Source: Candidatus Woesearchaeota archaeon (GTDB lineage Archaea > Nanobdellota > Nanobdellia > Woesearchaeales > GW2011-AR4). Taken from it: a DNA stretch of 64,000 nucleotides. Every line of letters begins with the position of its first letter. Positions within the stretch are counted from its first letter, which is position 1. Of the stretch, positions 3,964 to 62,726 are shown piece after piece. The DNA lies in assembly GCA_016187465.1 (NCBI GenBank), contig JACPJQ010000007.1, positions 62,001-126,000 of the forward strand, read 5' to 3'. Position numbers and translations under genes: made by a program. A model generated the notes under the pieces. It searched no databases. It was not told the DNA's origin and saw nothing but the letters and a program-made list of their open reading frames with translations.

Positions 3964-6498
3964 ATGAAATCCAAGTTTTTTCAGAAAAATAGTGACCTTA
4001 AATACGCAATTCTATTATTGTTGGTGACTCTTGTTCTGTTTTCAAAGGTTTTATCACATCCTAAGGATATTATTTGGTCACCCTCTTCAGACCTCATTGA
4101 GCAATTTTCTTATTGGAGCGAGTTTAGGTACAAATCAGTCAATGAATTTGGGCAACTGCCGCTTTGGAATCCTTACACATTAAGCGGATACCCTTATGTT
4201 GGCGACCCTAATTCTTCCCATCTTTTTTACCCCGGCAAGATATTACTTAATTTTTTCAATAATCCTCAATTCGGCTTTATTTTCATAATCCACTTTTTCT
4301 TGGGAGGCTTGTTCGTATACTTGTTTTTAAAGGCATTAGGCATAGATGACTTTAGCTCTTTTATTGCAGGCGCAGTTTATATCCTAAGCGTAAAATTAGC
4401 GTATATTGTTTGGCTGGGTTATCTTGATAGAGACACTAGTGTAATGGCAGTCCCTCTGCTTTTTTTATTAGTGGAAAAATATTTCAGAAAAAAACAGAAA
4501 TTTTATTTGATTTTGATTCCATTGGCATTGGCGCTTCAATTCTTCGGCGATGTTCCGCAATTCTCAGTTTATACTGTATTGGTCATATTTATTTATTATA
4601 TATTCAGGGCTTTTTCTGAGCAAAGCTCAGAGCCCTCTTGGCGAGGTTTTGCAGAGCAGTTAAAGATAAACTTCTATAATTTGTTTAAATATCTGAGCAT
4701 ATTTGCTATTATGCTTGTACTTTTTATATTGCTATCATCAATCCAGTTAATACCTAATTTAGAAAAGTTTCAGTTTAGCAGCAGGCGGCAGGGCCTAAGC
4801 TTTGAAACTATTACTAAAAGCTATGTTATTCCGCCATACTATATCATAACAATGCTGATGCCGGATTTTGCTGGCTCTTACAATAATGGCTCATACTGGG
4901 GGGTTTATGGTTACCCGGAGATAGCGAGTTATATCGGAATATTGCCTTTAATTTTTGTTATGTTAACTTTTTTAAACAGAAATAAATTTACAATCTTTTT
5001 TTATATTTTAGCTGCATTTTCCCTGCTTTTTGCTATTGGAAAATATTCGCCTTTATTTCTTTTATTCTATAATTTTGTGCCTACATTTAACTTGTTCAGG
5101 AACCCCCTAAGAATGCTGTTCTTTTTTAATTTTGCCATGGTTGTGCTAGTGGGATTCGGAACTAATTTTTTCCTGAGCAAACTTAAACCAAAAAAATCAA
5201 AACGAATTTTGTCCATCTTACTGGTCATCTTTATTGCATCAATTGCAACAACTGCCTTAATTTATTTGTTCGCTTCGCATATGATGAACATTGGCGAAAA
5301 AATGCTAATAAATAAGATATCTAACGCCTCAACTCCATTAAATTCTTTAGGATTTTACAAAGAAAAGCTGATGTTAGCGTATAATGAAATTGCATCTGGC
5401 TTCCTAACTTTTGATGCACTGCTCCTCTCAATAATTTTATTGTTCTATTGGAGATTGAGAATGCCAAAGTTGCCGAGCAAAGCTTGGACATATCCCCGAG
5501 CAAAGCTCTCGAATATAAAGCTGATAAAACCGCTTATATTTCTAATTATATTTCTTGACCTTGGCTTGTATTCTATGAGTATTATTCAGGTAAAAGACAA
5601 GTCTGCTATATTTGAAAAGACCGATATTATTAATTTTTTGGAAAAAGATAAAGGAATTTTTAGGGTACTGGCATTTAAAAATTATCTACTGCCCCAGTAT
5701 TCCTCAATAAAATACAATATATACAAAGTTGATGGGTATGAAGGCATGATAATGAAAGATTATTTTGATTACATCTCTGCTATGAACAACGCCACTGCCA
5801 TTCCTGCTACAGTTCTTCCTATAGTCGACATATATTATCCCGAGATGCTGAATCTTCTAAATGCCAAATATGTTGTATCAGAAAAGCAGTTATACGGAAA
5901 CTATTATAAAAATTATGAATTAGTATATAACACAACCAGCAATTTTTACCTGTCTTTTGGGATGACCCGTATGTATGACAAGGAATTCAATGATGCCTCC
6001 CACGAATTCATCGGAAGGAAAGGTGTATTTGTGTACCTCAATAAAGATTTTTTGCCAAGGGCTTTTGTTGTGCCAAGCGCCGCTGTTCTGGACAGAAACA
6101 ATATTTTAGCTGAACTTAAAAAGCCAAGTTTTAAATCAAGAGGGCTGGTTTTGCTGGAAAAGAGCCCAAACAAGCCTTTGGCTAATCAAGGGGGATACAA
6201 AGAAGCGAATATAACTTTTTACTCTCCAAATAAGATTAGCGTAAGCGTTGATACGGACTACCCTGGCTTTTTGGTTTTAAGTGAAGTGTGGTACCCTGGC
6301 TGGAAAGCCCTGGATAATGGAAAAGAAACAGAAATTTACAGGGCAAACTATATAACTAGGTCAGTCTATCTGGACAAGGGCGAGCATGATGTAGATTTTA
6401 TTTATGATCCGCTGTCTTTTAAAATTGGGTTATGGATAACTATTGCAACATTATTTTTTATTATGGCGTATATTGTAATTTATTATAGAGAACTTTGA
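3964..6498 (+). CDS. YfhO-family polytopic membrane protein
   Basis: 844 aa; LPLWNPYTLSGYPYVGDPNSSHLFYPGK-type N-terminal loop and C-terminal VLSEVWYPGWKALDNGKETEIYRANYITRSVYLDKGEHDVDFIY typical of YfhO proteins. Confidence 0.85.
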   Translation: MKSKFFQKNSDLKYAILLLLVTLVLFSKVLSHPKDIIWSPSSDLIEQFSYWSEFRYKSVNEFGQLPLWNPYTLSGYPYVGDPNSSHLFYPGKILLNFFNNPQFGFIFIIHFFLGGLFVYLFLKALGIDDFSSFIAGAVYILSVKLAYIVWLGYLDRDTSVMAVPLLFLLVEKYFRKKQKFYLILIPLALALQFFGDVPQFSVYTVLVIFIYYIFRAFSEQSSEPSWRGFAEQLKINFYNLFKYLSIFAIMLVLFILLSSIQLIPNLEKFQFSSRRQGLSFETITKSYVIPPYYIITMLMPDFAGSYNNGSYWGVYGYPEIASYIGILPLIFVMLTFLNRNKFTIFFYILAAFSLLFAIGKYSPLFLLFYNFVPTFNLFRNPLRMLFFFNFAMVVLVGFGTNFFLSKLKPKKSKRILSILLVIFIASIATTALIYLFASHMMNIGEKMLINKISNASTPLNSLGFYKEKLMLAYNEIASGFLTFDALLLSIILLFYWRLRMPKLPSKAWTYPRAKLSNIKLIKPLIFLIIFLDLGLYSMSIIQVKDKSAIFEKTDIINFLEKDKGIFRVLAFKNYLLPQYSSIKYNIYKVDGYEGMIMKDYFDYISAMNNATAIPATVLPIVDIYYPEMLNLLNAKYVVSEKQLYGNYYKNYELVYNTTSNFYLSFGMTRMYDKEFNDASHEFIGRKGVFVYLNKDFLPRAFVVPSAAVLDRNNILAELKKPSFKSRGLVLLEKSPNKPLANQGGYKEANITFYSPNKISVSVDTDYPGFLVLSEVWYPGWKALDNGKETEIYRANYITRSVYLDKGEHDVDFIYDPLSFKIGLWITIATLFFIMAYIVIYYREL

Positions 6499-27916: not shown

Positions 27917-28027
27917 ACTCTGCCAGTGACTTATAATATTTAAATAACTTTCGCTAATTTCATGAGGTCAAGTTAGGTGTATTTTGTTTTATAACCATTT
28001 TTAAATACGCCTTCGGCAAACTTTAGT

Positions 28028-28190
28028 GCTCGGTGGCTTAATGCACCTCGCACACAGCCTATTCGAACGCGAGCAGTGAGTTGTGAGGCGAGTTCGGTGA
28101 GTTAGCGAGCGAAGTCGAGCTTCGCATGTCACGCCTCACTCGCCAGCTACCAGCGTTCTCGCACGCGACTACCGCCTCGCCTATTCATTT
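28028..28190 (+). ncRNA. Candidate structured RNA / GC-rich palindromic element
   Basis: GC-rich island in AT-rich intergenic; nested stems gaacgc(28065-28070)/gcgttc(28153-28158), gtgaggcg(28083-28090)/cgcctcac(28132-28139), gcgaag(28109-28114)/cttcgc(28120-28125); TATA-like tttttaaata at 27998-28007, ~26 nt before 28028. Strand uncertain. Confidence 0.4.
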
Positions 28191-42805: not shown

Positions 42806-42995
42806 CAAACGCAGTAAATTTTCGTAATAGATATGCGTTTGACATGTCGGAAATCGCAGAGGCACATACTTTGGTACTTAAGTCCAAAGCAAGCCGTCGA
42901 ATGCGAATGGGCGAAGCGAACTCGCTTACAAGTCACGGATTTCCGAGCATGCTCAAAAATTCCATCAATTTATAATAAATACATGGAATTTTTGA
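42806..42995. other. Strongly palindromic intergenic block, candidate structured RNA or repeat element
   Basis: Three successive hairpins: caaacgca(42806-42813)/tgcgtttg(42834-42841); tcggaaatc(42847-42855)/gatttccga(42938-42946) enclosing ctttgg..ccaaag and aagcg..cgctt; tcaaaaattccat(42953-42965)/atggaatttttga(42983-42995). Confidence 0.45.
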
Positions 42996-58778: not shown

Positions 58779-58853
58779 CCTTATATCCTTCCCTTATTTT
58801 TCTATTATATTGCTTAATTTTTTCCATTTTTCCAGACAAAGCTTTCCATTCCA

Positions 58854-58907
58854 GATCTTTCAAATCTTTCAAATCTTTCAAATCTTTCAAATCTTTCAAA
58901 TCTTTCT
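58854..58907. repeat. 9-bp tandem repeat, 6 units (aatctttca on + strand)
   Basis: gatctttca + 4 x aatctttca + aatctttct read directly. Confidence 0.97.
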
Positions 58908-58924
58908 AATATCATTGCTTCCGT

Positions 58925-60700: not shown

Positions 60701-61687
60701 ATGGAAACTAGAGATAAGATTATTGAAATTATAAAGATTAAAGGGCCTGTTTTGCCTGTGCAGATCTCAAAAGAGATTGGAAGCAACATACTGATGGCAT
60801 CTGCGCATCTTGCAGAGCTGACGGCAAGCAGCAAGCTGAAGATATCAACAATCAAGGTAGGGGGATCGCCTCTTTACTATCTTGCTGGGCAGGAATCCAT
60901 GCTGCAAAAATACACAGGGAACATGAACGACAAGGAGAAAAAGGCATTCGACTTGCTGAGCCAAAACAAGGTATTAAAGGATTCTGAGCAGGAGCCTGTA
61001 GTGAGAGTTGCATTAAGGGAGATCAAGGATTTTGCGAAGCCTTTGAGCGTCAACTATAACAATAGCAAGGAGATATTCTGGAAATGGTACCTTGCAAGCA
61101 ATGAGGAGGCTGAGCAGCTCATAAAATCACAGCTTCGAATTCTTGAGAAGCCTGCAGAAAATAAAATAGATGAAAAATCAGCAGAAAAAGCACAGCAGGA
61201 AAGTAAAGAACAGCAAAAAACAGAAGAAAAACCAATGCAACAAACTCAAAAACAGTTAAAAGAAAAAAAAGAGTCGGATGCGAGTGAGCTGGCAAATGGC
61301 GAGCGAGCCTTGCGAGCCTCGCAAGTCACGCGAACTCGCTCGCAAGTCACTAGAAAATACAAAAAGAGGGAAACTGAAGACATATTCCTGAAAGATATTT
61401 TGAGATTCTTTGAGAAAAACAAGATAGGCATCATTGACACAGAAACAATAAAGAAGAATTCTGAAATTGATTTTATTGTCGAAATTCCAAGCGTTGTTGG
61501 AAACCTGCAATATTACTGCAAAGCAAAAAACAAGAAAAGGGTAAGCGATTCTGACTTGAGCAACGCCTATGTAAAAGGCCAGTTCAAGAAGCTGCCGGTA
61601 ATCCTTATCGCGCCAGGGGACTTATCGGCAAAGGCGCAGGACATGGCAGGCAAAGAATTAAAAAACTTGACCTTTAAGAAAATATAA
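60701..61687 (+). CDS. Protein with N-terminal winged-helix-like region, low-complexity linker and C-terminal possible restriction-endonuclease-like domain
   Basis: N-term METRDKIIEIIKIKGPVLPVQISKEIGSNILMASAHLAELTAS; linker rich in K/E/Q; C-term SEIDFIVEIPSVVGNLQYYCKAKNKKRVSDSDL. Confidence 0.7.
   Translation: METRDKIIEIIKIKGPVLPVQISKEIGSNILMASAHLAELTASSKLKISTIKVGGSPLYYLAGQESMLQKYTGNMNDKEKKAFDLLSQNKVLKDSEQEPVVRVALREIKDFAKPLSVNYNNSKEIFWKWYLASNEEAEQLIKSQLRILEKPAENKIDEKSAEKAQQESKEQQKTEEKPMQQTQKQLKEKKESDASELANGERALRASQVTRTRSQVTRKYKKRETEDIFLKDILRFFEKNKIGIIDTETIKKNSEIDFIVEIPSVVGNLQYYCKAKNKKRVSDSDLSNAYVKGQFKKLPVILIAPGDLSAKAQDMAGKELKNLTFKKI
61278..61350 (+). repeat. GC-rich palindromic element inside a CDS
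   Basis: gcgagcgag(61299-61307)/ctcgctcgc(61335-61343); cttgcgag(61309-61316)/ctcgcaag(61318-61325); direct repeat ctcgcaagtcac at 61318-61329 and 61339-61350. Confidence 0.75.
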
Positions 61688-61688
61688 G

Positions 61689-62726
61689 ATGGGAGTAGCC
61701 TTAACTGAATTATTGCTAATCAAGGAGATTAATCTAGAATTTCTTAAAAACAAAGTGTTGGCTGTCGATGCCCCAATGTGGCTTTACCAGTTCTTAAGCT
61801 CGATAAGGCAAAGAGATGGTTCCCTGCTGATAGATTCAAAAGGCAATGTCACCTCTCATTTGATGGGATTGTTAACAAGAGTGTCTAACCTAACCCGGCA
61901 GAATATCAAGCTTGTATTTGTTTTTGACGGCGAGCCGCCGAAGCTGAAGCACTCGACTCTTGAAAAGAGAAAGGAAATCAAGCTGGAAGCCCAGAGAAAT
62001 TTTGAGAAAGCTAAGGAAAGGGCTGATGCTGAATTGATGAGAAAGTACGCTTCAAGAACATCCAGACTAACTGGCGATATGATAGGAGAAGCAAAAAATC
62101 TTATAGAGGCTTTTGGATTGCCTGTTGTGGAAGCTCCTTCTGAAGCAGAAGCTCAGGCATCCCTCATAGTGAAAAACAATGATGCGTTTGCCTTGGCAAC
62201 AAATGACGCTGATGCATTGCTTTTTGAGGCCCCCCTAATAGTAAGAAATCTGAATATGGCCGGCAAGAAGAAAAAAACGAACAAGTTAAGCTATGAAACC
62301 ATAAGTCCGGACATTATCAATCTGGATGATAACCTCAAGCATCTTGGAATAAGCCAAGAGCAGTTAATAGCGCTGGCGATGTTGATTGGAACTGACTACA
62401 ACAGTGGAGGGATAAAGGGCATAGGCCCAAAAACTGCTTTAAAATTGGTAAAAAGGCATAAGAATGATTTTGAAGGATTGTTTATTGACACAAAATGGAA
62501 TGACTCCTTTGAATTTTCGTGGAGAGAGGTTTTCGATTTGATAAAAAATATTCCTGTCAATGAAAAGTATGAATTGAAATGGAAGCCTATAGACGAGGAA
62601 AGGATTATGAGACTGCTTGTGGGTGAGCATGATTTTTCAGAAGAAAGAGTAAAAATGCAGATAGAAGGATTGACAGATAAAAAAACAAAAAAAATGCAGA
62701 CAGGGTTAAGTGATTTTTTTGGTTAG
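61689..62726 (+). CDS. fen: Flap endonuclease-1
   Basis: VLAVDAPMWLYQFLSSIRQ, LVFVFDGEPPKLK, VVEAPSEAEAQASLIV, ALATNDADALLF, LIGTDYNSGGIKGIGPKTALKLV, C-terminal PIP-like QTGLSDFFG. Confidence 0.97.
   Translation: MGVALTELLLIKEINLEFLKNKVLAVDAPMWLYQFLSSIRQRDGSLLIDSKGNVTSHLMGLLTRVSNLTRQNIKLVFVFDGEPPKLKHSTLEKRKEIKLEAQRNFEKAKERADAELMRKYASRTSRLTGDMIGEAKNLIEAFGLPVVEAPSEAEAQASLIVKNNDAFALATNDADALLFEAPLIVRNLNMAGKKKKTNKLSYETISPDIINLDDNLKHLGISQEQLIALAMLIGTDYNSGGIKGIGPKTALKLVKRHKNDFEGLFIDTKWNDSFEFSWREVFDLIKNIPVNEKYELKWKPIDEERIMRLLVGEHDFSEERVKMQIEGLTDKKTKKMQTGLSDFFG

Follow-up and report, generated by a model that had tools for sequence, protein, structure and literature searches.

A dispersed palindromic element, probably mobile, found in protein genes, RNA genes and intergenic DNA of Woesearchaeota

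Rickettsia and Wolbachia palindromic elements are dispersed, multicopy sequences that also lie in frame within the ORFs of many unrelated genes; their mechanism is unknown (PMC3767692, PMC10969869). Mitochondrial genomes contain repetitive hairpin-forming elements, among them the double-hairpin elements of fungi and the GC clusters of yeast (PMC2800124). REP elements are GTAG/CGTC-tagged and have RAYT transposases (PMC3733652). Here we describe an apparently unrelated palindromic family in a DPANN archaeon, with copies in gyrB, PDH-E2, FtsY, 16S rRNA and tRNA-like genes. To our knowledge, in-frame protein-coding palindromes were previously known only from bacteria, chiefly Rickettsiales, and from organelles, and in the open-licence literature we found no report of such an element in Woesearchaeota, DPANN or archaea. 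We consider it, with a probability of roughly 0.85, to be a mobile palindrome of Woesearchaeota that is dispersed and non-autonomous and inserts into genes for proteins and RNAs as well as into intergenic DNA.

The stretch of DNA analyzed, here called the window, comprises 64,000 nt of Candidatus Woesearchaeota archaeon GCA_016187465.1 (contig JACPJQ010000007.1, forward strand, 62,001–126,000). The host gene and the element within it have the following features, in window coordinates:

60701..61687, plus strand: host ORF, 328 aa, with a winged-helix-like N-terminal part, a disordered linker and a C-terminal domain
61272..61351, plus strand: the 80-nt palindromic element, of the long, nested type, in frame with the 60701 ORF
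61279..61288, plus strand: left outer arm TGCGAGTGAG of the family hairpin, placed by alignment and structure
61335..61344, plus strand: right outer arm CTCGCTCGCA, family consensus CTCGCTCACA
61299..61343, plus strand: strongest local palindrome, GCGAGCGAG...CTCGCTCGC around CTTGCGAG/CTCGCAAG

A preliminary description had placed a GC-rich palindromic patch with the in-frame peptide GERALRASQVTRTRSQVTR at 61278–61350, in the linker of the 60701 protein. The patch is present letter for letter; the complete element is slightly wider, at 61272–61351, and its last CT is probably target sequence. A 12-bp direct repeat, also proposed there, is present as CTCGCAAGTCAC at 61318–61329 and again at 61339–61350, and CGCAAGTCACGCG occurs three times in the window with up to two mismatches, against 0.26 expected. 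The GC content of the element is 61%, compared with 37.6% for the window, where 0.05% of 80-mers are equally GC-rich. It folds as a hairpin inside a hairpin, better than dinucleotide shuffles as single-stranded DNA (z −2.7) and somewhat better than shuffles as RNA (z −1.8). A covariance model scored it at 86 bits (E 2.8e-19), a value that is not independent, this being among the 16 copies that built the model.

Within the 328-aa ORF the element is read as ESDASELANGERALRASQVTRTRSQVT and contributes about 25 residues. The surrounding linker is of low complexity and varies in length among orthologues. AlphaFold2 gave nearly all of residues 151–225 a pLDDT below 50, flanked by two confident domains, and the insert (about residues 191–217) therefore sits in a disordered linker. 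Pfam has no family for the protein. Its C-terminal domain found its best PDB match in the MspJI endonuclease, a weak one (E 4e-4, TM 0.23), so that an MspJI-like nuclease fold is possible for the modeled domain. The gene, 60701–61687, encodes a conserved woesearchaeal protein, whose close relatives in the named genome collection are all labeled Candidatus Woesearchaeota, and adjoins FEN1 (61689–62726). All 16 orthologues aligned from the same genus are without the insert residues and align on its flanks. The nearest empty form, L018, reads AAAAAAAGAACCTAGAAAATAT, and the filled form reads AAAAAAAAG[AGTCGG...GTCA]CTAGAAAATAC.

Further copies are numerous. A BLAST-type DNA search of the same genome, independent of the covariance model, returned two at 84% identity (E 1.2e-17) together with several weaker ones. 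Two similar pieces already suspected within the window, at 28065–28158 and 42911–42937, turned out to be, respectively, a diverged copy and the right part of a degenerate one:

28075..28170, minus strand: diverged copy, 33 bits, lying within a larger intergenic repeat that is itself structured (about 28008–28190)
42895..42937, plus strand: degenerate short copy CGTCGAATGCGAATGGGCGAAGCGAACTCGCTTACAAGTCACG, intergenic

The larger repeat at 28008–28190, ATGAATAAATAGGCGAGGC...GCCGAGCACAAAATTTGCCGAAGGCGGATTGA, is a second repeat that is dispersed, intergenic and structured, and it is frequently positioned just 5' of genes; its middle is variable and at times contains the palindromic element (loci L042, L043, L045, L047, L050, L052, L053, L065 and L066). 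Elsewhere in the window, a 9-bp tandem repeat, TTTCAAATC, in about six copies, lies between two minus-strand genes at 58849–58911.

The covariance model matched 19 of the 20 genomes of this Woesearchaeota genus, with up to 67 matches per genome; some sites figure in these counts with matches on both strands, and the counts rest on search tools. Of about 190 genomes sampled elsewhere in the order, where the filters were stricter than for the genus, only 6 gave matches, two of them 17–19. The element in the 60701 gene is thus one copy of a dispersed palindromic family that is patchy outside the genus. In one genome of the genus, G003, the arm 12-mer pattern WTGYGAGYGAGY gave 62 matches and the reversed control none. 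Rfam searches of eight copy-bearing loci brought only 16S rRNA to the gathering score, and at E values up to 0.1 four loci gave only 16S rRNA and a tRNA. Viral contigs held no exact arm-pair match, and phages and plasmids gave no BLAST match; spread by viruses or plasmids was rejected on these grounds.

Copies carry polar arms, ATGCGAGTGAGC...ACTCGCTCACAA. Canonical arms were read in 94 of 130 distinct copies, the left mostly as GTSRMATGCGAGTGAGC and the right mostly as ACTCGCTCACAANTSACT. Apart from a single conserved mismatch and a single wobble they pair completely, and it is this imperfect pairing that makes the element polar. Copy lengths fall into clusters of 38–54, 76–88, 110–116 and 166 nt because hairpins are nested in hairpins, the loop of the longer forms enclosing one or two additional hairpins with ends of the same kind. 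At one gyrB site filled in three genomes, and at a GINS51 site filled in two, the outer arms are common and the inner modules differ. The element itself encodes no protein.

Copies lie in about 16 distinct protein genes, and nearly all of these copies are stop-free and in frame. Hosts recognized by Pfam are GyrB (three genomes), GINS51 (two genomes), PDH-E2 (two genomes), PGM/PMM (two different sites), a metallophosphoesterase, FKBP26, a YGR210-like GTPase, FtsY, a glycosyltransferase 2 (GT2), ThiF, PS decarboxylase and TatD; in these the domains run on at both sides of the insert or beside it. A 548-aa ORF has its copy at the N-terminal end. In an S3-like ORF, which we take for ribosomal protein S3 from its sequence and neighbors, the stop codon comes from the element and the C-terminal tail is trimmed.

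In the genome's own 16S rRNA a copy lies at a helix tip, where 43 nt occupy the place of 4 in the archaeal model. A copy also stands between the variable arm and the T stem of four tRNA-like genes of class II, two each in the genomes G001 and G013. Genes of this class (L297–L317) occur genus-wide with a common acceptor, GCCGCGG/CCGCGGC, and the genome studied here has its own near 4317–4406 of contig 7 (G000). They show an apparent intron of about 30 nt in the T loop and, on manual reading, odd anticodons (GAG, CAG, AAG, GAC or GAT). ARAGORN misses the interrupted genes and also their uninterrupted relatives. The T loop of one tRNA-like gene (L315; G011 contig 4, about 2490–2656) contains an inserted palindrome of another kind, GAAAATGCATAGCATTTTC and CAAAAATCTTCGATTTTTG, and other palindrome families may accordingly do likewise.

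Most other copies are intergenic, some of them within another structured repeat. The apex of a flanking inverted repeat is occupied by 14 of 131 copies, compared with 1.0 expected from re-paired flanks, an excess due in part to copies that lie within other palindromic repeats. Copies were seen at the apex of one recurring outer palindrome, GAATAGGNTTTT...AAAANCCGTGTTTG, in the flanks of L220, L247, L150 and L153. Coding insertions showed no preference for predicted hairpin loops (21 sites, P 0.68), so that hairpin-tip targeting was rejected as a general rule and applies at most to a subset.

Empty and filled orthologous sites were compared between genomes of the genus, not within one species. 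Three gene families offer clear empty sites (tRNA-like, gyrB and 60701/P0001), and in none of them was a target-site duplication found. GGC-AT-CTGGG becomes GGC[TGTGAC...GTCA]CTGGG in the tRNA-like genes, AAAG-ACA-CTGG becomes AAGG[AGTC...GTCA]CTGG in gyrB, and AAAG-AAC-CTAG becomes AAAG[AGTC...GTCA]CTAG in 60701. In each family the element takes the place of 2–3 target nucleotides, and the right flank begins with CT; the junctions are uncertain by 1–2 nt because the empty sites come from relatives and not from the same strain. The gyrB site is empty in 17 of the 20 genomes and filled in three. These three do not form one clade on the GyrB tree, where support is modest, and the site is therefore either a repeat target or was filled once and lost several times.

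These junctions bear on whether the element could be an ordinary MITE, a remnant of an inverted-repeat transposon moved by a resident, target-duplicating transposase. Such an origin would fit a short, multicopy sequence with terminal inverted repeats that lacks its own coding capacity, and a Y1-type transposase (PF01797) is encoded in 8 of the 20 genus genomes, this one included. However, target nucleotides are replaced and not duplicated, and nested hairpins are not a MITE feature. The Y1 gene is absent from the high-copy genomes G010, G001 and G014 and present in the low-copy genomes G016, G009 and G002. For reverse transcriptase (RVT_1), too, some high-copy genomes lack the gene and low-copy ones have it. 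Neither tracks copy number across these incomplete MAGs, which makes both unlikely drivers. G003 contains no long autonomous form bearing exactly these arms, all arm 12-mer pairs falling within about 110 bp. We regard the MITE explanation as unlikely, while giving it more weight than the other alternatives.

Among copies in protein genes of known strand, 15 are in sense orientation and one, in TatD, is antisense. Stop-free frames alone predict 53:47, from which 15:1 departs with P of about 6e-4, and all five rRNA and tRNA-like copies are sense. The counts are small and the classification partly manual, making the sense bias a lead rather than a result. The established splicing of bulge-helix-bulge introns out of archaeal tRNA and rRNA, the invariably sense copies in 16S rRNA and tRNA-like genes and the bias in protein genes would all agree with an intron-like hairpin that is removed from rRNA, tRNA and mRNA precursors, leaving the protein without the peptide. 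Splicing would not need the protein-gene copies to be stop-free and in frame, as nearly all are, however; most copies are intergenic, and the S3-like ORF takes its stop codon from the element. An intron-like nature is consequently very improbable. That the insert is a conserved functional peptide or RNA feature that arose in place in the 60701 protein, as its low-complexity linker of variable length might suggest, is effectively refuted by near-identical DNA at other places in this genome and across the genus, and by the occurrence of this element in unrelated, conserved genes whose empty sites are precise.

For the mobile element that we favor, movement would be in trans and free of target-site duplication, and would act on a folded single strand, either hairpin DNA or possibly RNA that is copied back. 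Hairpin loops, including the element's own, would be favored points of re-entry, giving rise to the nested forms. In protein genes, copies that lie in a loop or linker and leave the frame open would be tolerated and become part of the protein. The element is probably still mobile, or was so recently. A more specific proposal, which we put forward as doubtful, is that it enters genes in the sense direction through RNA-level insertion or a single strand exposed by transcription, and grows by re-entering its own hairpin loop. If true, sense entry together with loop re-entry would be a kind of movement so far undescribed for cellular chromosomes. The 20-genome data set with its exact empty sites makes the mode of movement, open since the description of the Rickettsia elements, testable.

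The family was not filed with the Rickettsia palindromic elements (RPEs), the MITEs or the REP elements, since it departs from them in host or length, in target-site duplication and in location, respectively. Like REP elements, it is short and imperfectly palindromic, with a stem that is conserved and asymmetric (PMC3733652). Unlike them, its copies are not restricted to extragenic DNA, many being in genes, and the Y1-type transposases do not follow copy number as a RAYT-like partner might. With the MITEs of bacteria and archaea it shares small size, non-autonomy, multiple copies and inverted repeats (PMC10969869), but it has no target-site duplication, and the arm scan of G003 found no parent transposon. 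The mitochondrial elements share more: GC-rich hairpins in an AT-rich genome, located in intergenic DNA, rRNA genes and ORFs, var1 for example, in single, double and more elaborate forms, without a known enzyme (PMC2800124). The present family differs in residing on the chromosome of a free archaeal lineage, in its polar conserved arms and in being common to a genus.

The likeness to RPEs, suggested in the preliminary description, is supported as an analogy: the behavior is the same in another domain of life, and neither kinship of sequence nor membership of the RPE family is claimed. The description had also proposed to look in the genome for other copies and in sister genomes for the absence of the insert, and both were found; the orthologues do not keep the peptide. 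RPEs, the Wolbachia elements and this family are all dispersed, multicopy palindromes, also in frame in many unrelated genes of a small, host-dependent genome (PMC3767692, PMC10969869). The host here is Candidatus Woesearchaeota and not Rickettsia or Wolbachia. RPEs measure about 100–150 bp, whereas canonical copies here span 38–166 nt in nested steps, most being 38–88 nt and that in the 60701 gene 80 nt, and copies lie also in 16S rRNA and tRNA-like genes. The parallel suggests that small host-dependent genomes repeatedly acquire selfish DNA of this kind.
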